Positions 21 to 11,619 of a stretch of DNA of 22,310 nt are shown piece by piece. A program made the position numbers and the translations under genes. The stretch's first letter is position 1. Each line of letters starts with the position of its first letter. The DNA is from a virus, in the IMG/VR virus record IMGVR_UViG_3300000227_000011, positions 1 to 22,310 of that record; one strand, written 5' to 3'. The notes beneath the pieces are model-generated. The model was not told the origin of the DNA, did not search any database, and was given only the letters and a program-made list of their open reading frames with translations.

Positions 21-2900
21 TCAAACTCCTCCGCCGACCGCGTAGGCTTCCACGTCTACCGGCGCGAACAGGTTGCCCGTCTTAGCCGCCATGTTAGAAG
101 GCGGCATCAAGAGCGGCAGCTTCAGCTCCGCTGGCCTCCAGGACTTGAGCCCATCCCGAACCGCCCGGACCTGGAACACGAGGATGGCGGAACCGTCCGG
201 GATAGTGTGTTCAAGCAGGTCAATCGTGTAGGTTTTCAACGCCCCGATGTCCTGCTGGAAGAACTGGACCTGGCTGCCGTCCTCCGTCTCGCCCAACATC
301 GTGACTTCATATGTGGTTCCAGCCTCCGGGACCACATCCCCGTCCGTCCAGGCCAGCGGCACGCCGCCCGTCTCCTGGAGCCGGTTGCGGTCCACCCACG
401 TAGCCACCGCCGGGTAAGTCACGTTGTCGTTGGGGTCCACGTCCAGCTCGCCGTTGATGCGGAGGTTCGCCGGGCGGTAGGGCCGGGCCGCGCGGCCTTG
501 GATGACCACAGGCAGCTCCGGAGCGAGGTCCGGGTTCAGCTGCCCCAGTCCGGTCACGCTTGCGAGCTTCACCCGCACGGTTTCGCTCGTCACGTATTCC
601 GTAGGCGAGCCTGCACCGTACAAGTCCCAGAAATAGATGACAGCACCGTCAGGGTGTGTTTGCGGAGTGGTGTCGAGGATGCAGCGGCGAACGGTGATGG
701 AGCTGGTGCCCGTGATCGACTCCACCCACACCAGCTCGGAACCAATCTGCGCCCAGCACGGCAGTTCCAGCATGTCGAGATCCACACCGTTTGTGATCGG
801 AATCGTCGTTGCGAAACGGGACAGAGCGCCGACCACAGTTGCAGTCGGGCAGAAGTCGATCAAGCCCACCTCTTCAAACTGCGTGTCAGACACGCCGGCT
901 GTGAACATGCGCGCCTGGATCGATGCGCTGTTCGGACGTCCACATGCCGCGCCAACGTATCCTAAGTCGGGATTCGTGGCAAGATCGGTGTCGACGGTCG
1001 TTTGCCCTTGCGTCTGCACAAGTTCCAGATACGGCGCTTCGAACGCGATCTGCTTCGTGATAATGGTGGGCGGGCTGTTCGGGTCTTCCCAGGCTGGGGG
1101 CTGCGGCTCCACCGGCGGCACAGCGGGCAGATCGAACACGTCCTCGGTGCAAGTCAGGCGAATGCGGTTCGTCTTGCCGTCACCGTAAGCAATGCCCGTG
1201 ACACGCATGACGACGTCGTTGATATTGTAGTCCGCCCACGACCAGCGGAACACACTACCGACAGTCAGATCCTTGGCTGTACGGTCCGCGTAGATGGTGC
1301 AGGTTGCACGCTGCGTTGACAAGCTGTTCAGGTCGCGCTGAGCCACACGGGACGCAATGCTGGGGTCCACGAACCCTGGATATTGCATCGTCGTTCCGAT
1401 GGTGACGCCCTGCATCTGCTGGAGAGCGATGTCCTGCGCGGTCACACTGGCATCGCGTCCGGTGTTCACGTTCCAGTAATTGACCGTCACCGCGTTCACG
1501 AGCTCGCCAAACGCGGGTCGAGAGAAGTTCTCCACCCGATCGATATTGTCCTCGTTCAGGTGAATCAGATCTGGTTTGTTATAGTCGCCCCGGATGAGCT
1601 TGAGTGTGAACAGCCCAGTTTTGCGATCGACGTACAGCGCAGCATCAATGTGGCGAACGATGTCCGAGATGAAGTCCTCGATCGACTTCTGCCTATCCCA
1701 CAGAACGCTGATGCCCATACGCTCCGCGTACAGCGTGTCAGCAGCTTTCATGAAGGACTGGTCGTCGACGTCCGTGTCCGAGTACCCCATACCCCAATCT
1801 GGATCGGTGAGGCATTCCCGGATGATGTGCGCGGGGTTCATGGCGGAACTGTCACCCATGACCGCGAAGAAGACTGCATCGTACAGCGCACGCGAGTTCG
1901 CGGAGTCTACGACGGGAATGCCGTCCTGAGGGGTGTTGTCGATCAGCGCGGTGTACGAAGTGTTATTGAGGTCGATGTTAATCGCAAAGATGTCAACCTG
2001 ATTGACCTCGTAAGCACCCGAGCGGCTGATCATATCCCCGTGGTTAGCCACAGCGTCGTCGACCGAGCTCACCGGCGTGGGTTCACCGTCCGTGATGAAG
2101 AACATCGCGCGTCGACGAGAGTCGCTTGAGGAAGGTTGGAAGAAGCTATCCGCTATTTCAAATGCGGAGTTGAAGTTCGTTCCCCCTCCGTCAGTGACGA
2201 TACCCTCAACGAAGTTTCGAAGGTCCACGAAATCCGATGTCTGCGCGTTATAGCGCGTCATCGTCGTTGTGCCTCCGCTCCAGCCCACGATACAGATGTC
2301 GACTTGCACCTTCGAATCGATGCGCATCTGGTTGATGGAGTCAAGCACGTCCTTGAGCTGGTCCTTAGCGATGCGCAGGCGTGACTGACCGCCGATCAGC
2401 GTGTCCATGGAGCCGGACTTGTCGAGTGCGAAGTAGAACATCTGCCGCGTCTTGAAGTTCGACGCGACCTTAATCTCCGCTCGAGGGTAGTACCATTGAG
2501 CCACACCGTTCTGACGGGTGTGAATGCGTTGCAAGCGGAACGACCAGCGCTTCAGATACGGGTTCAAGCCGAGATACACTTGGCGGAGGACCACACCAGC
2601 CACCCCGCGAAACGCCGGCACCAGCCCGCCTAGGCGCGATTGCAGGTAGTCGTTCACACCCTGCCCGGGCCCACCTGGCTCAAAATCGACCGCGCCTTGC
2701 ACGCCACCCTCTCGCGACTCACCGCCGAAGAGTTCGGGATTGTTGACGTAGATCCGCCCGGATTTGCGGTCTCCGACCCAGGCGTCTTTCGTGTCAACTT
2801 TGATACGAAGGATTTTATCCACGGGGCCATGACAGAGGATCATGTGCATCCCGAGATAATACTTGTATCCGACAGTGACTTTCTTACTTCTGCCGCCCAC
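21..2900 (-). CDS. Tail-tip protein with an inserted VWA domain
   Basis: A 959-residue protein expected at the distal end of the tail. Residues 1-145 (GYKYYLGMHMILCHGP, then VYLGLNPYLKRW) and residues 353 to about 600 (MNPAHIIRECLTDPDWGMGY onward) look like one continuous phage tail protein of the Phage-tail_3 type. Between them, residues 154-349 form a VWA domain with a complete MIDAS: D160-x-S162-x-S164 (ALDKSGSM), T241 (GGGTNFN) and D271 (FFITDGEP). After about residue 600 comes a proline-rich linker (PAVPPVEPQPPAWEDP) and a C-terminal beta-rich region. The start is GTG, preceded by GGAGG six bases upstream, and overlaps the previous gene by 17 bases. The tail-tip assignment rests on fold resemblance and on gene order after tape measure and hub. 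The VWA function is unknown; metal-dependent binding of a host surface ligand or of the hub is inference. Confidence 0.88.
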   Translation of the reverse strand: MGGRSKKVTVGYKYYLGMHMILCHGPVDKILRIKVDTKDAWVGDRKSGRIYVNNPELFGGESREGGVQGAVDFEPGGPGQGVNDYLQSRLGGLVPAFRGVAGVVLRQVYLGLNPYLKRWSFRLQRIHTRQNGVAQWYYPRAEIKVASNFKTRQMFYFALDKSGSMDTLIGGQSRLRIAKDQLKDVLDSINQMRIDSKVQVDICIVGWSGGTTTMTRYNAQTSDFVDLRNFVEGIVTDGGGTNFNSAFEIADSFFQPSSSDSRRRAMFFITDGEPTPVSSVDDAVANHGDMISRSGAYEVNQVDIFAINIDLNNTSYTALIDNTPQDGIPVVDSANSRALYDAVFFAVMGDSSAMNPAHIIRECLTDPDWGMGYSDTDVDDQSFMKAADTLYAERMGISVLWDRQKSIEDFISDIVRHIDAALYVDRKTGLFTLKLIRGDYNKPDLIHLNEDNIDRVENFSRPAFGELVNAVTVNYWNVNTGRDASVTAQDIALQQMQGVTIGTTMQYPGFVDPSIASRVAQRDLNSLSTQRATCTIYADRTAKDLTVGSVFRWSWADYNINDVVMRVTGIAYGDGKTNRIRLTCTEDVFDLPAVPPVEPQPPAWEDPNSPPTIITKQIAFEAPYLELVQTQGQTTVDTDLATNPDLGYVGAACGRPNSASIQARMFTAGVSDTQFEEVGLIDFCPTATVVGALSRFATTIPITNGVDLDMLELPCWAQIGSELVWVESITGTSSITVRRCILDTTPQTHPDGAVIYFWDLYGAGSPTEYVTSETVRVKLASVTGLGQLNPDLAPELPVVIQGRAARPYRPANLRINGELDVDPNDNVTYPAVATWVDRNRLQETGGVPLAWTDGDVVPEAGTTYEVTMLGETEDGSQVQFFQQDIGALKTYTIDLLEHTIPDGSAILVFQVRAVRDGLKSWRPAELKLPLLMPPSNMAAKTGNLFAPVDVEAYAVGGGV

Positions 2901-3087
2901 GAGCCGCCTCCACTACTTGAAGGGCCATCGGATCGCCTGTTGCAGCGAGCTTGTCGGCCGGAATACCGTTCTGAAGGAAGTCAGACCAGTCCAGGTCGTG
3001 CTTCTTGAAGAAGTCCCGCGTACCGCGTGAGCACATCTTCACAGAGCGTACATCGTCCATGCGAATGATGAGGGTGTCGTCGGTCAT
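2884..3087 (-). CDS. Conserved small tail-region protein (67 aa)
   Basis: A 67-residue soluble protein with no signal peptide or membrane segment. It resembles a family of small proteins found next to tail-tip genes in siphoviruses of Gram-negative hosts, recognisable by the pattern KMCSRGTRDFFKKHDLDW followed by GDPMALQVVEAARGR. No enzymatic motif is visible. Its ATG overlaps the stop of the 77-residue gene upstream as ATGA, and its end overlaps the tip gene by 17 bases, so the three genes are probably translationally coupled. Its position between hub and tip suggests a tail-tip assembly factor or minor structural subunit. The function is not known to me; the coding call is firm because of the overlaps and the conserved look of the sequence. 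Confidence 0.75.
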   Translation of the reverse strand: MTDDTLIIRMDDVRSVKMCSRGTRDFFKKHDLDWSDFLQNGIPADKLAATGDPMALQVVEAARGRQK

Positions 3088-3317
3088 TTCTTCCCGCCCT
3101 TCTTCTTGATTGCGACAGCGCGGAGATCTCCGTACCAGACGACGTTGGCACTGTCGATATCTCGCGTTCCGAACAGCACGGGGATTTCCCGGCCCTCCTC
3201 CGCGGTAGGCACCTGGATCTCACCCAGGCCGGCAGGCTTGTGGCTCTGCGCCTTGGGCGTCATCGAATAGGCAACGACCAGCGCGACAATGAAAACTGCG
3301 ATGTACCACCAGACCAT
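3084..3317 (-). CDS. Small membrane-anchored tail assembly protein (77 aa)
   Basis: A 77-residue protein with one hydrophobic segment at residues 3-17 (WWYIAVFIVALVVAY), followed by a short polar domain containing GLGEIQVPTAEEGREIPVLFGT and ending in a basic KKKGGKK tail. The GEIQVPTAEEGxxIPVLFGT pattern is one I associate with small tail assembly proteins encoded beside tail-tip genes. The segment could be a membrane anchor, or a hydrophobic helix that becomes buried in the tail tip. The ATG follows an AAGG-containing leader 12 bases after the hub stop codon. The gene occupies the slot between hub and tip where many related tail modules, including gene transfer agents, carry an NlpC/P60 peptidase; no peptidase motif is present here. 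Confidence 0.75.
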   Translation of the reverse strand: MVWWYIAVFIVALVVAYSMTPKAQSHKPAGLGEIQVPTAEEGREIPVLFGTRDIDSANVVWYGDLRAVAIKKKGGKK

Positions 3318-3329
3318 GATCGCGCCTTC

Positions 3330-4775
3330 TTAGAGGATGGAACTGCCGTCCATGGGGTTTCGAGTTGGAATCCAGTCGAAGCCCCCATAGTTGTTCAGGT
3401 TGTTAAACTTGCCCGCGCACGTCAGGCGGGTACGGTCGCAGCCAGGGAACATACGGCACGCAATGCCTCCGTAATATTTGCCGTAGGACAGACCGTAACC
3501 GTCTCCGACCAGCGCTTTGGCGAGCGATTCAAACGGGCGAATCAATACGAGCTGGGAACCCACATGCGAGACGATGAATCGCATGGTGCCGTCCGGGCCC
3601 TCGAGAATGCCTCCAGTGAAGAACCCATTCGGTTGATCAGCAGCTTCCGGAACGGTGACGACCTTACCGTTGATGGCGGTAGGGATGCCGCCGTAGGCGA
3701 ACGATTCCTTGTTCAGTCCGCAGCCCCGACCGTACAGCATATGACGACAGGTTCGCTGATAACGTGCCCGCAGGCCTGGGCGGCGCAAAGATGTGAAGAT
3801 AGATTCGAAGTTGAGAACGATCTCCGACATGGTGGGCTTAACGCCGGCAAGCCTGCCTTTCCACACCACACTGATTTCATCGTCGTCGTCCCGTTCGTAG
3901 ATCGTGAGACCTACCAGCGTCTCGACCTGATCGTGCAGCCAGCGGATGCCCATCGGGTTATCGAGTGACATACGCACTTCGAGGTTCGCGCGCGAGAGTT
4001 CGTTCTTGATTTCGGCTTCGGTGCGACCGATGGCCATGGGCTCGTACGTCTCGCCCTCGTATGTGACCCACTCGTCCCCGCTGGTGAAGGTCCACACATT
4101 GGATTCGGTGGGCACTGCCGACATGATCGCATTGTAGAGCGCGTCGGAGTTCGTGGAGGACAGCACGGGCACACCGTCGCGCGGGGTGTTGTCCAGGAGG
4201 CCTAGATACGTGGTGTCGTACAGGTCGACTGACAGGCAGTAGATATCGACATCGTTGCCAGTGGACGGTGCAAAGGAACCAGTCCGACCAATCATATCTG
4301 CACAGTTTGTGGCGGCCTGGGCTGCGGAGCTAGGCGGTTCAGGCTGTCCGTCGGTAATGAAGAAGCACGACTGACGGAAATCAGCAGGGGTTGGCGTCAG
4401 GTAGTACGACCGCGCAATCACCATCGGCAGATTGTAGTTCGTACCGTCCCACGTCGGCTCCAGTGCATCTACAAACGCCTTGAGCTCGGCGATGTTGGCG
4501 GTCTGCACACCGCGGCGAACGATGTCGACAGTAGATCCAGAGAACCCGCAGATGCCGATATGCACCTCAACATTCTTCTCAATGCGCTTGCGGTCAATCT
4601 CGTCGAGAACTTTCTTGACCTGCTCCTTGAGGATCATCATGCGGGTCACGCCTGGAGCAACCTGCTCAGCCATTGAGCCGGACCTGTCCAGGATGAAGTA
4701 GAAGTTCTGGTTCCCGTCGAACGGGTCACGCATACCTACTTCAGTGAAGCGATAGAGTTCCGCATGTGTCGTCAA
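3330..4775 (-). CDS. Tail hub protein (DUF2163/Phage_BR0599 type) with an N-terminal VWA insertion
   Basis: A 481-residue tail hub candidate. The family start MTTHAELYRF is at residues 1-10, and the DUF2163 fold resumes at about residue 227 (VWTFTSGDEWVTYEGETY). Between them, residues 24-222 are a VWA domain with full MIDAS: D30-x-S32-x-S34 (ILDRSGSM), T112 (GTNYN) and D142 (FFITDGQP). The C-terminal part has the Phage_BR0599 pattern CRHMLYGRGCGL and a final NNYGGFDWIP, with cysteines at 343, 352, 440, 446 and 453. In lambda gpL and gene-transfer-agent hubs, equivalent cysteines hold an iron-sulfur cluster; a cluster here is inference. The start is TTG, supported by GGAG eight bases upstream, by TTGA overlap with the previous stop, and by the conserved N terminus. 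The VWA clearly resembles the one in the downstream tip gene. Confidence 0.9.
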   Translation of the reverse strand: MTTHAELYRFTEVGMRDPFDGNQNFYFILDRSGSMAEQVAPGVTRMMILKEQVKKVLDEIDRKRIEKNVEVHIGICGFSGSTVDIVRRGVQTANIAELKAFVDALEPTWDGTNYNLPMVIARSYYLTPTPADFRQSCFFITDGQPEPPSSAAQAATNCADMIGRTGSFAPSTGNDVDIYCLSVDLYDTTYLGLLDNTPRDGVPVLSSTNSDALYNAIMSAVPTESNVWTFTSGDEWVTYEGETYEPMAIGRTEAEIKNELSRANLEVRMSLDNPMGIRWLHDQVETLVGLTIYERDDDDEISVVWKGRLAGVKPTMSEIVLNFESIFTSLRRPGLRARYQRTCRHMLYGRGCGLNKESFAYGGIPTAINGKVVTVPEAADQPNGFFTGGILEGPDGTMRFIVSHVGSQLVLIRPFESLAKALVGDGYGLSYGKYYGGIACRMFPGCDRTRLTCAGKFNNLNNYGGFDWIPTRNPMDGSSIL

Positions 4776-5932
4776 GGTTGAATCTCCACAGTGTTCACCG
4801 TGGCACGCAGAACGCTGTTCCCGAGCCAGTTGAGTTCAACGCGATCAGTATCCAGACGACGCAGGCCGAGGAAGCTGATTGCTCGAATGATGCTGGCCTG
4901 GATATTGAGGTTGCTGTCAAGGGTTAACTCTAGCACACCTGGAGTCGGAGTAGCAATCCCCGTCACAGTACGAGCTAACCACACACCGCCAGCATTCACC
5001 GCGATGTGGTTTCGATTGGGCGGCCAATCGGTGTACCCGTCGGCGGGATTCACCCTCAGCTTGTTCGTCAGCGTGCCCGTGGATGCGTTGCGCAGATCGT
5101 TCTCGTAGGTGGGCTCCCAGAAGCGACGGAAGCGCCCAGCACGGCGCATGAGCCAGCCCCGCAGCGCACGCACTTCAGCAGGGCCGTTGGCGAGCATGTG
5201 GCGCGGACGCAGATCTCGGTTGAAGTTCCACGGATAGCGATTCTCCACAAGGCCGAGCTCATAGTCGATGCGATCGGTGCGCGTGGTCAACGCGGTACTG
5301 ATGAGCCCGTCGTTGAAGAGCGTCGGATCGAGGTAGATGTCGTTCCCGAGAAACTGCGCGGGAACAGTAGCGTCCAGCGCGAGGTTATCCTCCACCTCGA
5401 AGATGATGCTGGTGCTACCCTCAAAGCCGTTGGACGCTCGGGTGATGTCATCCCGAATGCGGCCGACGCGCACAGGCAGCAAGTAGGCGTTCTGGAACGC
5501 GACTGTGAACCCATCAATGGTGATGGAGGTCGCATCCATAGCCGCAATCTCAACGACTTGCCACAGGTCGGGACTTTGCCAGAGCAGGGCAAGCCCGTTC
5601 GGACGCAAGTCATAGTTCACCGTATCGCAGAGGATCGTCCGGGTGTTCGCAATCACCGTTCCAAGGTGTTGCACCTCAGCCCACACAGGCACAGCCCATT
5701 TCAGACGCAGGGCGCCATAATAGGCCAGATAGGCGCGCAGCTTGCTGACGTTACCTTCCGGGATGTCATAATTGAACGACTGCCTGGCATGGTTGCGAAG
5801 CTGGATCGCTTTCTCGGTTCCGTTGAACGACTGCATGAGGTCTGTCTTCCATTCCAGGTTCTCCCGCATGGGAGCCCGGGCAGGAAAAGGCAGGAAGGCG
5901 AAGTCTCCGAGCGACGTTGTAATCTTCGCCAT
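4772..5932 (-). CDS. Minor tail protein, distal-tail candidate
   Basis: A 386-residue protein encoded directly between the tape measure and the hub, the usual position for the distal tail protein that connects tube to tip. It has no transmembrane segment. It starts with a beta-rich region (residues 1-60) and has a stretch near residues 255-275 (WLMRRAGRFRRFWEPTYEND) that I recognise from minor tail proteins of siphoviruses; the DUF2460-like distal proteins of gene transfer agents are a possible relation. The rest alternates short beta strands and loops, in keeping with a structural protein. The ATG begins one base after the tape-measure TAA, with a GGGGG run upstream as ribosome site. The stop overlaps the TTG of the hub. 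Placement in the tail tip is firm from context; the exact role is not. Confidence 0.8.
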   Translation of the reverse strand: MAKITTSLGDFAFLPFPARAPMRENLEWKTDLMQSFNGTEKAIQLRNHARQSFNYDIPEGNVSKLRAYLAYYGALRLKWAVPVWAEVQHLGTVIANTRTILCDTVNYDLRPNGLALLWQSPDLWQVVEIAAMDATSITIDGFTVAFQNAYLLPVRVGRIRDDITRASNGFEGSTSIIFEVEDNLALDATVPAQFLGNDIYLDPTLFNDGLISTALTTRTDRIDYELGLVENRYPWNFNRDLRPRHMLANGPAEVRALRGWLMRRAGRFRRFWEPTYENDLRNASTGTLTNKLRVNPADGYTDWPPNRNHIAVNAGGVWLARTVTGIATPTPGVLELTLDSNLNIQASIIRAISFLGLRRLDTDRVELNWLGNSVLRATVNTVEIQP

Positions 5933-5933
5933 C

Positions 5934-8804
5934 TTAACCCCCGTTCAGAATGGCACGGGTCTGATCGGAGTTGCGTCGCATCACGTTCATGATCACTTCT
6001 TCGCCCTCCGGCGTGCTGAGGTAGTCCCCGACCAGTGCCGGATCCACCACGTTAATGATCCGCGCATTCAGTGCGGGCTGCGCTGCGCCTCTGCCGGCAT
6101 TGCCCGTTGCTGCGTCCGTACCCTTGCGCACTTGAGTCGGGGTAGCGACGCTCACCGTTTCGCCCGGGCTCGCCCGGAACGCCACCATCTGCGAGTCAGC
6201 TCCACCGCTGCCTCCGACCTTAAAACTACCACCCGTCATGAAGCCCACGTTCTGCGCGACGATCGAGGCTACGTTTGCCGCGGCAGCAACACCAGCCGCG
6301 GCAGCCAGCGCATAGTTGGCAGGGGGCGGCGCGCTTGCCAGGGCCTTCTGCACAGCCAGGACACCGTCGATCGTGGCCTGCGTGATCGCTGCTGCCTTGC
6401 CAATCGCTGCAATCTTCTTGTTCTCCGAACGGGACAGAGTTGCAAGGTTGCCGAAGAAGCTCTGCGCGTTCTGGAGCTGGATCTGCTGCGCCTGCACGTT
6501 GACCTTCGCCTTCATTTGGGCGGCAGTCTGTTCGCTGATCAGATCTGCTTGCCGCATCTGATCGATCTGCAGATACATATTCTGAAGCGAGGCCAGCTGA
6601 GCGTTGATCTGTTCCTGCGTACCAGCGAACAGATCAGACCCGACACTGTTCATCAGCGCGTTCGTTGCGTCAGCACTGGTGAAGCCGCTGGACGGGTTAG
6701 CCAGCAAGTTCTTAATCGCTTCAATCTGCGTGGCGAAGTTCTGGCGCGTCTGGACGCTGTTCTGCAGAAGCGAATCCTGCGCCGCCACAACCTCGTTCAG
6801 ACGCTGCATTGCCTCCAGCTTAGCGCGCAGGCTTGCGGTCTCTTGCTCATTCAGGATGATACCCTGGGACTTGAGCTCCTTCTCGTACTGCATCATCTGC
6901 TGTTGAATCTGACGCTCGCGGTTATTCAGACCGAGAAGCGAAGTCTGCTCGTCGATCTCACGATTGATCTTGCCCAGCGGATCAATCGCGTCCTGATAAT
7001 GCGTCTTCAAGAGCTCGAGGTAACGCGCCTGATCCTGCGTGGTAATCAAGCCCTTGGCAACCGCCTTGTTGAGCGTCTCCTCGGCCTTCGCCATCTCCAG
7101 CTTAGCACCTTCGACCGGAGCAATAGTGTTCAACAGGCTGCGCAGTTCGTTCTTGAGCTTCTCGAGTTCCTTACGTTGCTTCTCCAGTTTCTTAGCATCC
7201 AGACCGGGGGCGCGCAGTTGGCCCAGCGGATTGCTGAGATCAGCGCCGCCAGCCTGTTCACGCGCAGCACGCTCGCGACCGATTTCCTGCGCCCGCTTGA
7301 TGCGGTCTTCCAGGAAGCGTTGAGCGTAGTCGACGGAGTTGAATCCGTCCATGAATGCGGTGCCCACGTCCTTTCCGAGCTGAGCGGCCGCGCCCTCGTT
7401 CTCGTTCGTCAGTTGCAGATTCAGAGTGGCAATCTTGCCTAGCCCCACGAATTCGGTCACGCTGCTCAGCAGTTGACCCGCCCCGTTGACGAAGTTACCG
7501 ATCTTGCCAAGAATGACGTTCAAGGCCTGCGTGAACAAGTCGCCCATTGCAGCGGGCAGCCCCTTGAACAGCGCGATCACGGCCTTGATGGCACCGAACC
7601 AGGCGCCAAAGTACGTGTCGACTGCCTTAGCTACGAGGCGCAAGATACCCACAAGGCTGATGTCGACTTCACCGACCCAGCTCTTGATCATGTCAATGGC
7701 AGGGCCAAAGGTGCGTTCGGCCCAATCTGCGATCAGCGTGAAACCCTGGACGGCGCTCTCCCATACTGCACGCATCAGGTCGCCCAACGAAGTCACGTCG
7801 TCAGTGCCCAGCTTGATCTGATCCCGGAACAGGGTCAGGGCAGTGATTGCGCTGGTGATCAACACCAGCAGAAAACCGATCGGGTTGGCTGCAATAGCCG
7901 CGTTAAGCGCCAGCACAGCCGCGCGCACAGCGTTGATCGCCGCTACCCCGCCTTGCACCAGCACAAACCCCGCAGCCACCGAAATAAGCGACTTTGCCAC
8001 GAGGTCGAAATTCTCGGCAAGCCACTTAGCAGCTTCGCCCAGCTTGTTACTGATGCCCAGGCTGGCGTCCATCTCGCCAATCCACTTCATGAAGGCGTTG
8101 CTGATCAGGGTCATACCCTGCGAGATGGTGATGGACGACTTGGCGAAGTCGGAATTGATCTGGTCGGTGCCCGCCATGACGGCATCGAAGAACTCACGCG
8201 AAGTGAGCTTGCCGTCCAGCATCATCTTCCGGAGCTGGCCAATGCTGCCGTCCGCGCCCTTGATGTTGTTCGCGACGACCTGCAAGATCGCGGGCGCGCC
8301 TTCCAAGATAGAGTTGAATTCTTCCGCACGCACTACACCCGAACCCAGCGCCTGGCCGAGCTGCATCAGCGCACCCTGGGCTTGTTCTGCGGTCGTAGCG
8401 CTGGACGCGAGCACCTTGCCCACGTTTTCGGTGAAGCCGATCAATTGTTCCTGGGACACGCCCAGTTCTTTACCCGCTCGCGCGGTGCGGCTGTAGAGCT
8501 CCACGATGTTCGTGAAGCCTTGACGGGTGTTCTGCGCAGCGCGGAAGAGCTTGTCGGCGACCGCTGCCGCTTCTTCGGTGTTGCGCGTGGCTACCCGGAT
8601 CTGGCCCGCAGCGCTGGCCCATGCGTCGGCGTAGCGTCGGATCTGGTCAATCGCCAATACACCAGCAAGCGCGCCGAGGGCGCGCTTGAGCATGTCGACA
8701 CCGCTGGCAGCCTTCTCAGACGAATTGCCGATGTCCTCGATGTTCCGCTTGACGACCCGGGAACCGTCTTCCCGGATTCGGATGTCAATAGTTTCGGTCG
8801 CCAT
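5934..8804 (-). CDS. Tape measure protein
   Basis: A 956-residue tape measure, the alpha-helical protein that sets tail length and passes into the host envelope during DNA entry. Residues 40-250 form the typical N-terminal tape-measure region (YADAWASAAGQIRVATRNTE, later GALMQLGQALGSG and FNSILEGAPAIL). Residues 272-326 are strongly hydrophobic, with two or more potential membrane segments (including IGFLLVLITSAITALTLF). A long coiled coil fills the region from about 480 to 800. The C terminus has the common glycine-rich ending (GFMTGGSFKVGGSGGADS, then VAFRASPGETVSV). With about 0.15 nm per residue, a tail of roughly 140 nm is expected, which fits a siphovirus. The ATG overlaps the previous stop as TAATG. 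A very long plus-strand reading frame across it is only a GC-rich shadow. Confidence 0.97.
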   Translation of the reverse strand: MATETIDIRIREDGSRVVKRNIEDIGNSSEKAASGVDMLKRALGALAGVLAIDQIRRYADAWASAAGQIRVATRNTEEAAAVADKLFRAAQNTRQGFTNIVELYSRTARAGKELGVSQEQLIGFTENVGKVLASSATTAEQAQGALMQLGQALGSGVVRAEEFNSILEGAPAILQVVANNIKGADGSIGQLRKMMLDGKLTSREFFDAVMAGTDQINSDFAKSSITISQGMTLISNAFMKWIGEMDASLGISNKLGEAAKWLAENFDLVAKSLISVAAGFVLVQGGVAAINAVRAAVLALNAAIAANPIGFLLVLITSAITALTLFRDQIKLGTDDVTSLGDLMRAVWESAVQGFTLIADWAERTFGPAIDMIKSWVGEVDISLVGILRLVAKAVDTYFGAWFGAIKAVIALFKGLPAAMGDLFTQALNVILGKIGNFVNGAGQLLSSVTEFVGLGKIATLNLQLTNENEGAAAQLGKDVGTAFMDGFNSVDYAQRFLEDRIKRAQEIGRERAAREQAGGADLSNPLGQLRAPGLDAKKLEKQRKELEKLKNELRSLLNTIAPVEGAKLEMAKAEETLNKAVAKGLITTQDQARYLELLKTHYQDAIDPLGKINREIDEQTSLLGLNNRERQIQQQMMQYEKELKSQGIILNEQETASLRAKLEAMQRLNEVVAAQDSLLQNSVQTRQNFATQIEAIKNLLANPSSGFTSADATNALMNSVGSDLFAGTQEQINAQLASLQNMYLQIDQMRQADLISEQTAAQMKAKVNVQAQQIQLQNAQSFFGNLATLSRSENKKIAAIGKAAAITQATIDGVLAVQKALASAPPPANYALAAAAGVAAAANVASIVAQNVGFMTGGSFKVGGSGGADSQMVAFRASPGETVSVATPTQVRKGTDAATGNAGRGAAQPALNARIINVVDPALVGDYLSTPEGEEVIMNVMRRNSDQTRAILNGG

Positions 8805-9259
8805 TAAAGTTCCTCACGCAGCGAGGTCTGCAATAAGCTTCCGGCGCCCTGCGCAGCAGCGACTCCGACCAAGACTGCCTTCTCAACGAAGCCCGCGGGA
8901 GCTTGCGCTGACCAGCCGTCATTGAGCCGTCCGATATATGGGAGATTGTTCGTGATGTGGATGGAGCTGCCGCCTCGATACTTCCCGATCTCGGCTTTGC
9001 CTTGGTCGATGGCGGCCTGGGCATTAGCGCCGCCGGTAGACCCATCCTTGCCTTCGGAATAGGCCTCGCGCGTTCCATCAGCAGGACTACCGATGTTCAC
9101 CTGCCAGTTGGAACGCGCGCGGCCGGTGTCAACAGGGGTTCCGATGACCACAGCACTATCGACAGCGAGCGCGACCTTCCGCACCATCGCGTCAGCGTTC
9201 TGTTCGATACGCTGACCGATGACCCGGATCCGTCCTGCAAACTGCCTCAAGTCAGCCAT
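8804..9259 (-). CDS. HK97 gp10-like tail protein
   Basis: A 151-residue protein with the hallmarks of the HK97 gp10-like family: a helical N terminus, then VVIGTPVDTGRARSNWQV, a glycine-rich loop (SEGKDGSTGGAN), IHITNNLPYIGRLNDGWSAQAP and a helical end (FVEKAVLVGV). Family members act as tail-completion or neck proteins, usually encoded before the tail tube gene. Here the gene sits after the tail assembly chaperones and directly before the tape measure, so it may instead be a minor tail component. Its ATG overlaps the stop of the chaperone T frame by eight bases and its TAA overlaps the tape-measure ATG, so translation of these three genes is probably coupled. The fold assignment is by pattern recognition only. 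Confidence 0.82.
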   Translation of the reverse strand: MADLRQFAGRIRVIGQRIEQNADAMVRKVALAVDSAVVIGTPVDTGRARSNWQVNIGSPADGTREAYSEGKDGSTGGANAQAAIDQGKAEIGKYRGGSSIHITNNLPYIGRLNDGWSAQAPAGFVEKAVLVGVAAAQGAGSLLQTSLREEL

Positions 9260-9614
9260 TCGATTTCCCCTTTGGTTCAGTGGCCTTCTTGAGCTTCTTC
9301 GCCTTGAAGTCCAGGTAGACCGCGTCGAGTGACTGTACGTGGTAGAACAGATCCTCTCGTTGCTCCCCTTCGACCTGATGCTCGTCTGCCCACTGTTTGA
9401 TGGATAGCCAGCTGATCGGACCCTCTGTCATGTACCCCGTACCCCTGCACGACGTCAGGTCCATGAAGGCGAGGTAGTAGAAATCAAGTCCTAGCAGCAG
9501 TTCAGGGGCATTGGCAATCTTCTCTGGCAGCGGAAGCCGCTGTTGAACACACTGTTGAATAATGAACTTCTCTGTCGGGCCCTGCTCCAAAAAGTAGAGC
9601 AGGACGTCCGTCAG
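9252..9614 (-). CDS. Tail assembly chaperone, T part of a frameshifted G-T fusion
   Basis: This reading frame of about 120 codons is best read as the C-terminal half of a G-T fusion made by -1 ribosomal frameshifting from the upstream chaperone gene; the fusion would be 259 residues. It begins L-T-D-V-L-L-Y-F-L-E-Q-G straight after the slippery site, and has a compact helical middle (FYYLAFMDLTSCRGTGY) and a lysine-rich tail (FKAKKLKKATEPKGKSNG). An independent start is unlikely: the only candidate is a TTG at 9590 with no Shine-Dalgarno sequence, and its position lies inside the predicted frameshift hairpin. In lambda and its relatives the G and G-T proteins bind the tape measure and recruit tube subunits, and are absent from the finished virion. 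Overlap with the gp10-like gene downstream supports one tail operon. Confidence 0.85.
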   Translation of the reverse strand: MTDVLLYFLEQGPTEKFIIQQCVQQRLPLPEKIANAPELLLGLDFYYLAFMDLTSCRGTGYMTEGPISWLSIKQWADEHQVEGEQREDLFYHVQSLDAVYLDFKAKKLKKATEPKGKSNG

Positions 9615-9620
9615 TTTTTT
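9579..9620 (-). promoter_or_regulatory. Programmed -1 frameshift signal (slippery site plus stem-loop)
   Basis: The slippery heptamer A-AAA-AAC (9620-9614) lies in the zero frame immediately before the TGA of the upstream chaperone. After an 8-base spacer, a 9-bp stem (9605-9597 paired with 9587-9579, one U-G pair) closes a 9-base loop. A slip of -1 joins the chaperone to the open T frame. Heptamer, spacer length and hairpin all match known -1 frameshift signals of siphovirus tail chaperone genes. Confidence 0.9.
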
Positions 9621-10030
9621 GCGTCGGCTTCCCGCACCTCCTGGCGGAACAGCGCAGCGCGCTGGCTCTGTTCCTGGATGTCGCGGAACAGGTCAGGCAG
9701 GTCATCGAACAGCTTCAAGCAATTCTCGACCGAGAACTCCATGTCGTTGCCGTTCTCATCTTCGACGTTTTCCCAGCCGAGGACGATCGTTTCGGCATAG
9801 ACTTGCTTGATGATCTTCTCGACCAGCGCGGTCTCGATGATCTCGTTCTGGATCTGACGGCGATACGGCTTGACGCGGATCTCCATCCGCTTCTCGTAGG
9901 CCTTGTTGGCGCCACCGGCGCGGGCGATGCGGATCGTAATCGGCTTGCCCTTGCTGTTCTCGCCGTACTCGAGGAGGATACCCTCCTTCTCCAGGCTGTT
10001 GTCGGTCTTGAATTGTTTGTACAGGCTCAT
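9611..10030 (-). CDS. Tail assembly chaperone (G-like)
   Basis: A 139-residue protein between the tail tube and tape-measure genes, the standard place for a tail assembly chaperone. It is mixed alpha/beta and rich in charged residues, with no membrane segment (ITIRIARAGGANKAYEKRM, then VLGWENVEDENGNDMEF). The sequence ends ...EADAKN, where the codons GCA-AAA-AAC-TGA contain the slippery site that lets a fraction of ribosomes continue in the -1 frame to make the longer G-T form. The ATG has an excellent ribosome site, GAGGTGATC, two bases upstream. It would bind the tape measure and keep it soluble while tube subunits assemble around it. The assignment rests on position, size and the frameshift signal more than on direct sequence resemblance. 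Confidence 0.9.
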   Translation of the reverse strand: MSLYKQFKTDNSLEKEGILLEYGENSKGKPITIRIARAGGANKAYEKRMEIRVKPYRRQIQNEIIETALVEKIIKQVYAETIVLGWENVEDENGNDMEFSVENCLKLFDDLPDLFRDIQEQSQRAALFRQEVREADAKN

Positions 10031-10089: not shown

Positions 10090-11619
10090 TTACACTCCGC
10101 CTGCAACATCCGGCAAGTAGGAAAAGCTCTGGAAGAGCAGGGTGTGCGCGAACTTGCTCTCCGCAGCATTGGTCTCCAGCGGCAGGGTGATGGCCTGGTC
10201 CTGCTCCACCGCCAGACGGCCGTCGCCCAGCGACAGGAGCGGGATGTCCCACAGCAGCGCGAAGTTCTTTTTCAGCATGATGATGTCGAGGGTGACATCG
10301 CTGTTGTTCCGCACCGCCTGGACCGCTTGCACGTCAGCAAAGTAGGCCGTCATGTTGCCGCCCACCTCGAAGGTGCCTGCGCTGGTGTCGAAAGCGCCCA
10401 GCACACCGATCGCCTTGTTCGGGGTCACATTGTTGTTGACGGTCAGGGTCATTTCCGTCGCAAACGCAAACAGCGGGACCGGGGAGGAATCAGTCGCGCT
10501 CACCAGCGCCAGCTTGATGCGGCTGAAATCGCTGGAGGTGTTGAACGCAGCCCCCGGAGCCAGCGACGGACGGGTGCCCGTCTTGACGCCCTGAGCGCCG
10601 GTGCGCTGTTCGTTGTCCACCGCGACGAAAGACAGGTCGATCGTGACCTTGTCGGCCTGTGCGATGTTGAGCGACAGCTCGTTCGGTACAGCACCCACGA
10701 GGTACTCGGACATCGTGCCGTTGGCGTCGGCGCCCAGCGTGCGCTCCACCTGATAGGTGCGACGCTTGATCAGGGCGGGGTCCGCTTCGTTCTTCAGCAC
10801 AGCACCGAAGAAGATACGGATGGTCTTGCCAGTGCCCACTTCCGCAACACCATCCCACGAGGTCTTGTCGAACTCGATGTAGGTAGCGGTGATGGCGTTC
10901 ACTCGAGCGAATCCGCGGTTGTCGGCGAATTGCGTGCCCACTGCATCACCTCCGAGGTACACCCACTCACCCGGGATGAGGCCCAACGTGGTCATATCGA
11001 ACGTACCACTCGCACGGCTCAACCGCACAAGGTCACCGTTCAGGGTGATGTCCACCGTCTCGCTCGCAAACTGGTAGCCGACAGCGGTCAGCTTGGCAGT
11101 AGCGGGCGGGTTAGCTTCGTCGACCACGGTCTCGTTGACCACAACAGCGGTTGCAGTGCTTGCACTCGCAACAGACTTCAGTCCATTGTTGGCGGTCACA
11201 CCGAAGCCCTGCGCCAGCACGAGCTGATTCGCCAGGAAGCCGGTCAGGCCGGCCGCGGCTGCGTAGGTCTTGGACGATCCCGTGACGCCGGTCACAGCGG
11301 TGGCCGCACCGTTCAGCGGAGCAGTTGTCTTCTTCTCGCGGATGTCAGCAAAGAAGAAGCCCTGGAGCAGGCGGGTCGTGTTGTCGAAGGTCAGATCCTG
11401 GTTGAAGCCACCGGAGGCGTCCAGGTCGGTCGTCACGCCTTTCTTGCGCTGGCGAGACGGGTTGATGGGATTGCGCGCCACGGTCGAGATCTGACCGCCG
11501 AAATCGTTGTAAGAGTTAGGTTCCAGCGCATACCACACCGGAGAGCCGGGCAGTTGCTTGAGGGCGGACTCTTCCGCGAACCGGAGGCCCGTTACGTTCG
11601 AATCAATCTTGTTTGCCAT
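10090..11619 (-). CDS. Tail tube protein (major tail protein)
   Basis: A 509-residue protein that is the best candidate for the tail tube subunit. The N-terminal part (residues 1-95: GLRFAEESALKQLPGSPVWY, FNQDLTFDNTTRLLQGFFFA) and the C-terminal part (about 285-509: RTYQVERTLG, later MTLTVNNNVTPNKAIGVLGA and MLKKNFALLWDIPLLSLGDG) look like halves of a siphovirus tail tube fold. The middle, about residues 100-280, is a long Ala/Thr/Val-rich beta stretch that looks like an insertion, making the protein longer than the common 200-350 residues. The inserted domain may project from the tail surface, as Ig-like domains do in lambda gpV; this is inference. The gene follows the tail terminator, has a GAGGTGATC ribosome site, and is followed by a hairpin. 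Confidence 0.88.
   Translation of the reverse strand: MANKIDSNVTGLRFAEESALKQLPGSPVWYALEPNSYNDFGGQISTVARNPINPSRQRKKGVTTDLDASGGFNQDLTFDNTTRLLQGFFFADIREKKTTAPLNGAATAVTGVTGSSKTYAAAAGLTGFLANQLVLAQGFGVTANNGLKSVASASTATAVVVNETVVDEANPPATAKLTAVGYQFASETVDITLNGDLVRLSRASGTFDMTTLGLIPGEWVYLGGDAVGTQFADNRGFARVNAITATYIEFDKTSWDGVAEVGTGKTIRIFFGAVLKNEADPALIKRRTYQVERTLGADANGTMSEYLVGAVPNELSLNIAQADKVTIDLSFVAVDNEQRTGAQGVKTGTRPSLAPGAAFNTSSDFSRIKLALVSATDSSPVPLFAFATEMTLTVNNNVTPNKAIGVLGAFDTSAGTFEVGGNMTAYFADVQAVQAVRNNSDVTLDIIMLKKNFALLWDIPLLSLGDGRLAVEQDQAITLPLETNAAESKFAHTLLFQSFSYLPDVAGGV

Follow-up and report, generated by a model that had tools for sequence, protein, structure and literature searches.

Why would a phage carry the same kind of von Willebrand factor type A (VWA) domain in two neighbouring proteins of its tail tip? 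This question is raised by a window of 22,310 nt, by which we mean the whole stretch of DNA that was analysed here and which belongs to a virus record of 41.6 kb. The gene order on the minus strand of this window is that of a standard siphophage: the tape measure (5934-8804) is followed by a distal-tail-like protein of 386 aa (4772..5932; phrog_1082, E 1.6e-93), a hub protein of 481 aa (3330..4775; PF09931/PF09356, TIGR02218-like), two small proteins and a tip protein of 959 aa (21..2900; Phage-tail_3, PF13550, E 1e-11; phrog_1101, 962 bits). The two small proteins, the order of which is conserved in relatives, are open frames of 77 aa with a hydrophobic N-terminus (3084..3317, minus strand) and of 67 aa overlapping the start of the tip gene (2884..3087, minus strand). 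With its VWA domain included, the hub matches PHROG 15205 (tail assembly protein) at 560 bits, and the tip gene of Bordetella phage MW2 has already been annotated as 'von Willebrand factor type A'; both of these are database names only. The reading that we favour, with a probability of about 0.68, is that the VWA domain is a module for metal-dependent adhesion to the host, that it sits in a port with interchangeable contents and that it acts as insertions do in evolved Dit proteins.

The two VWA domains lie inside the tip protein (aa ~153-351; 1854..2441, minus strand) and within the beta hairpin at the N-terminus of the hub (aa ~23-225; 4110..4706, minus strand), at the positions given in a first-pass annotation of this DNA. 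Both score above the curated Pfam cut-off (tip: PF13519, E 6e-11, and PF00092, E 6e-9; hub: PF13519, E 9e-9, and PF00092, E 3e-6), and a profile search of the whole 41.6 kb record returned exactly these two copies. The hub and tip VWAs align with 44% identity over 197 residues (E 1e-57, one comparison), and the motifs that had been noted as common to both lie within this alignment. AlphaFold2, supplied with alignments whose rows came from the loci described below, annotated phage records being left out, confidently predicted the VWA alpha/beta fold in both models (mean pLDDT 80 for the hub and 85 for tip residues 1-638). When compared with solved VWA domains, the models gave VIA Z values of ~20-22 and an rmsd of 2.0-2.5 Å over 170-184 residues; the hub VWA scored ~22 to the CMG2 VWA and 20.8 to an Aeromonas adhesin vWFA. 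Integrin I domains and vWFA domains from large adhesins of bacteria (9das, 9no5) are among the solved structures that come closest.

The metal site that had been proposed for both domains is indeed intact: the MIDAS residues DxSxS, T and D are present in both window VWAs (D160/S162/S164, T241 and D271 in the tip), and the site is presumably occupied by a metal ion. Asp-Ser-Ser-Thr-Asp is retained in nearly all of 116 VWAs, irrespective of whether the domain resides in the tip (81-83/83), the hub (20/20) or the distal-tail protein (12-13/13). In a less redundant set (n=56), these five residues and a neighbouring Met take the top six ranks in conservation across the domain. The phage VWAs form a profile family of their own, with scores of 43-280 bits versus 10-22 bits for host-genome VWAs. 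The DNTPxDG segment, which reads DNTPQDG in the window tip (aa 321-327), ranks next in conservation after the metal site and is flanked by a short helix and a late strand in the tip model.

Furthermore, both domains are inserted into a tail scaffold rather than appended to it, as the first-pass annotation had claimed, and comparison with insert-free homologues reveals a clean insertion in either protein. In the tip alignment (A3), most relatives without the insert have no residues in the VWA columns (aa ~153-350) but align on either side of them. In the hub alignment (A4), none of the VWA-less hubs has residues for the domain; their alignment covers the opening ~20 residues and resumes at ~225. 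The domain thus follows ~20 residues of scaffold, and VWA-less hubs are continuous across the site. The insert-free Bhz59 hub, for instance, reads MIELYKIVEGNQSWFLTSADEDYEYLGD, and the window hub reads LTTHAELYRFTEVGMRDPFDG-VWA-TESNVWTFTSGDEWVTYEGE at the insertion.

The scaffolds themselves have solved counterparts. The tip scaffold is that of gp53, the baseplate hub of phage JBD30, and of the tail-tip protein of phage Chi: it matches 8rk3_b of JBD30 (VIA Z 38.1, 396 residues, 33% identity) and 8vjh_A of Chi (VIA Z 36.9, 406 residues, 35% identity). Foldseek further linked the tip model with 8fqc_C1 of Milano and 9h4p_BD of HFTV1; the Milano paper does not mention a VWA. For the hub scaffold, Foldseek returned 8rk3_O (JBD30 chain O, E 1.7e-19) and 8vjh_D (Chi chain D, E 2e-17). 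We take 8rk3_O as gp50, the upper baseplate protein of JBD30 and the scaffold to which we assign the window hub, where the gp50 and gp53 assignments rest on the description and the common cysteine pattern in the JBD30 paper (PMC11445458) and not on a chain table. Hub residues C343, C352, C446 and C453 are invariant with spacings of 9 and 7, the same spacings as in Cys147/156 and Cys238/245 of JBD30 (PMC11445458), and the window hub has all four metal-cluster cysteines. Although JBD30 (8RK3) and Chi (8VJH) share both the tip and the hub scaffold with the window phage, the matched chain stretch is ~200 residues shorter and thus too short to accommodate a VWA at the port. JBD30 has three copies of its hub-like and three of its tip-like protein (PMC11445458), from which three domains are a fair expectation for each of the two rings suggested by the first-pass annotation, and there would be six VWA copies per tail tip.

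Screening of phage records by tblastn showed that PaMx28, QH3, BAPIC_0004, V45iii, Mallos and Bordetella phages have a VWA in both hub and tip, that Bhz59, Elanor, R6L and ZS04 have one in the tip only, and that Rhodobacter Titanviruses have it in the gene preceding the hub. A search with the hub VWA by itself as query found no loci. A profile scan of 241 loci placed the VWA at a single site in each of three genes, namely at aa ~185-388 of the distal-tail-like protein, at aa ~19-228 of the hub and, as the third site, in the tip. Where all three genes could be scored, the VWA was found in hub and tip at 19 loci, in the tip only at 50, in the distal-tail protein only at 12, in distal-tail protein and tip at one (Wenxinia marina) and in none of the three at 115, counts that come from redundant, search-biased loci and are not frequencies. 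Since so many relatives lack any VWA, the module is dispensable for infection in the family generally. The distal-tail VWA is carried by L002, L003, L207, L144, L147, L149, L189 and L182; with it, the two conserved halves of the protein are 220-236 aa apart, versus 37-63 aa in most VWA-less relatives. The distal-tail port of the window phage is empty (aa ~183-220; 5273..5386, minus strand). At the same site, L158, L161, L163, L169 and other loci (prophages) contain a different insert, with a gap of 130-141 aa versus ~38 aa; the one such insert that was tested had no Pfam match. The tips of L121, L122 and further Rhodobacterales contain an extra insert of ~65 aa near residue 70, ahead of the VWA port, and the tip therefore has a second insertion site.

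These distributions bear on the earlier suggestions that hub and tip VWAs bind each other and that they might always occur in pairs. If the two rings were held together by mutual VWA binding, with the pair as the functional unit, one could point to the tip VWA in 19/19 fully scored hub-VWA loci and to the co-occurrence of both throughout the window group; there were zero cases of a hub VWA without a tip VWA. However, in 50 of the 70 fully scored loci with a tip VWA, that VWA is the only one in the three genes, the 12 loci with a distal-tail VWA only have no pair at all, and the identity between hub and tip VWAs of one phage drops to 27-33% in the PaMx28 group. Pairing is therefore no rule, and mutual binding is very unlikely to be the main function of these domains.

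The first-pass annotation had also explained the two domains by one module that was copied from gene to gene, or by a common source. What stands is that one homologous module occupies both proteins, and that transfer between tail genes did occur, albeit in another phage; a simple recent copy does not stand. The window VWAs have their nearest relatives in the same gene of other phages, at 78% and 70% identity. A sister relationship of the window hub and tip VWAs was rejected (AU p=2e-6), and this sister-pair test rules out recent copying within the window phage; on the evidence of these trees, the two are old paralogues. Both fall among the phage tail VWAs and not closer to unrelated bacterial VWAs, where the only five true bacterial sequences have long branches, do not form one group and are too distant for a firm root, so that the root of the tree is uncertain. 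Nine hub VWAs form one clade (support 100/99) and the Bordetella/L198 hub pair is placed elsewhere, while a single hub clade is compatible with the data (AU p 0.44). A single origin of the distal-tail VWAs as one clade was rejected (AU p 0.0016), and this port was filled at least two times independently. The distal-tail VWA of L182, the Wenxinia marina locus, shares 70-72% identity with the tip VWAs of its own group but 47-51% with its closest distal-tail counterparts, and it is nested in the tip clade with support of 100/98. It is clearly a descendant of tip VWAs, and the module has thus moved from one tail gene to another.

Because the hub VWA is never found without a tip VWA, our data favour an order in which the tip VWA came first. 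Taken one step further, the hub VWA would have been gained once by copying from the tip and would now merely be tolerated, with the function residing in the tip copy. The compatibility with one origin of the hub VWAs and their constant company of a tip VWA would fit this course of events, but the uncertain root does not settle the direction of copying and the MIDAS residues are intact in 20/20 hub VWAs, which argues that the hub copy is still functional. We give a merely tolerated hub copy hardly any credence.

The tip port proved to accept other domains as well. Among 235 scored proteins of a redundant set, the port was empty in 77, occupied by a VWA in 83 and occupied by another domain in 75. 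These other domains comprise Laminin_G_3/ConA-like lectin folds, which exceed the Pfam cut-off in L055 and L065, a jelly-roll-like group with a weak likeness to BetaGal_ABD2 (E ~0.004, below the cut-off) and several insert groups that have no Pfam match; the fold hints suggest that most of the replacing domains are adhesive. Mapped onto a quick scaffold tree, VWA presence requires 18 gains or losses, at least 14 of which are forced by starred branches. The clearest case is provided by the Septimatreviruses QH3 and SCUT-S3, the DNA of which is 75-85% identical across the tape measure and replication genes: QH3 has a VWA at the tip port where SCUT-S3 has a jelly-roll-like domain, and a VWA in the hub where SCUT-S3 has no insert. 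Similar non-VWA modules also occur in the distal-tail N-terminus and the tip of the same phage (50% identity in L052, 39% in L107). For modules of the jelly-roll type, such sharing was seen in 9/20 same-phage comparisons and in 126/380 cross-phage comparisons, a modest excess that represents a pattern rather than a rule.

The same observations weigh on the idea that the VWA acts as a clamp, in which the MIDAS binds an acidic residue of an adjoining tail protein, stabilises or gates the closed tip and lets go upon receptor contact. VWA domains often mediate protein-protein assembly, and the MIDAS is kept in all three VWA-bearing proteins. In addition, the N-terminal domain of the JBD30 hub homologue contacts the distal-tail and hub proteins through loops (PMC11445458), and for this reason a structural role is possible for the hub VWA. 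Nevertheless, many relatives with the same scaffold evidently assemble without a VWA, unrelated domains occupy the tip port in close relatives, and there is no fixed partner VWA. A clamp is therefore an unlikely explanation for the module.

Host adhesion, the reading that we prefer, is suggested by the lectin-like replacements, the likeness to adhesin VWAs, the conserved metal site and the absence of an obligatory VWA partner. The tip, hub and distal-tail-like proteins would each offer a site that tolerates a whole domain, and the phage-borne VWA copies would be fitted to these insertion sites, or 'ports'. Exposed on the surface, as we infer, the VWA would bind the host through its MIDAS metal, presumably at an acidic group of a host surface structure, and would thereby add grip and avidity ahead of the dedicated receptor step.

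Evolved Dit insertions are known to promote adsorption (PMC10688798). In the evolved Dit proteins of siphophages such as lactococcal skunaviruses, a whole binding domain is likewise inserted in a conserved tail-tip protein, and 'classical' insert-free versions exist in related phages, just as the window proteins combine a whole-domain insertion with insert-free homologues. However, those phages infect Gram-positive bacteria and have carbohydrate-binding modules as inserts, whereas the window inserts are MIDAS-bearing VWA domains; lectin-like inserts occur in relatives only, the cultured relatives of the window phage group infect proteobacteria, and the VWA is present in up to two of three proteins. 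The window proteins may thus work like evolved Dit proteins, and we do not file them as such. A comparable protein set is found in roseophage R4C, whose RcGTA-like tail contains Dit, hub and megatron proteins with accessory domains for which carbohydrate binding and anchoring of the host were proposed (PMC10276861). The R4C hub also has the four metal-cluster cysteines; its accessory domains were described as OB-, CBM- or hydrolase-like, and the paper makes no mention of a VWA (PMC10276861). The VWA fold with a MIDAS, as in the phage proteins, is shared by the large adhesins LapA and that of Aeromonas and by the pilus-tip proteins PilY1, of which the MIDAS was described (PMC9210963), and Mfa5. 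Against 9das, 9no5 and 6tnj, the phage VWAs gave VIA Z values of ~18-21, but these bacterial proteins are cell-surface adhesins and not tail proteins. Descriptions of a VWA in phage tail tips, of a VWA pair, of three ports or of domain exchange were not found in the open-licence papers searched, which is weak evidence of absence.

The VWA is a swappable insert that probably serves to grip the host, and the adhesion repertoire of phages would thereby gain an integrin-like, metal-dependent and exchangeable domain; three neighbouring tail-tip proteins provide fixed insertion sites that are used repeatedly. The module-swapped sisters QH3 and SCUT-S3 make the function of the inserts testable by ordinary adsorption assays, and the ports offer a simple sequence handle to read adhesion modules in uncultivated phages. 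A bolder version, which we put forward tentatively and regard as rather doubtful in its entirety, has the tail tip as three standard sockets on stacked rings that are repeatedly loaded with interchangeable adhesins, often the same type twice for avidity; the VWA would then bind the host in an integrin I-like, metal-dependent and possibly conformation- or force-dependent manner and help to trigger tail opening.

Some further features of the window and its surroundings deserve mention. The window tip sequence has a best segment of 100% identity in a MAG from a cave that bears the name Anaerolinea thermophila (L114 and L115, DYKZ01000001.1). The 112 kb contig of this MAG has a second related tail module ~57 kb away, and a third is located on another contig (L116, DYKZ01000002.1); the name of the MAG is a doubtful guide to the host. 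Two neighbouring frames (9252-9590 and 9611-10030) resemble tail assembly chaperones. Since the second chaperone of Rhodobacter relatives is annotated as a joined gene of two pieces, a frameshift may take place at these frames. Lastly, the tail tube protein (10090-11619, 509 aa) is longer than its match to phrog_290 and has two stretches that match Phage_tube_2, which suggests that this protein contains an extra inserted domain.
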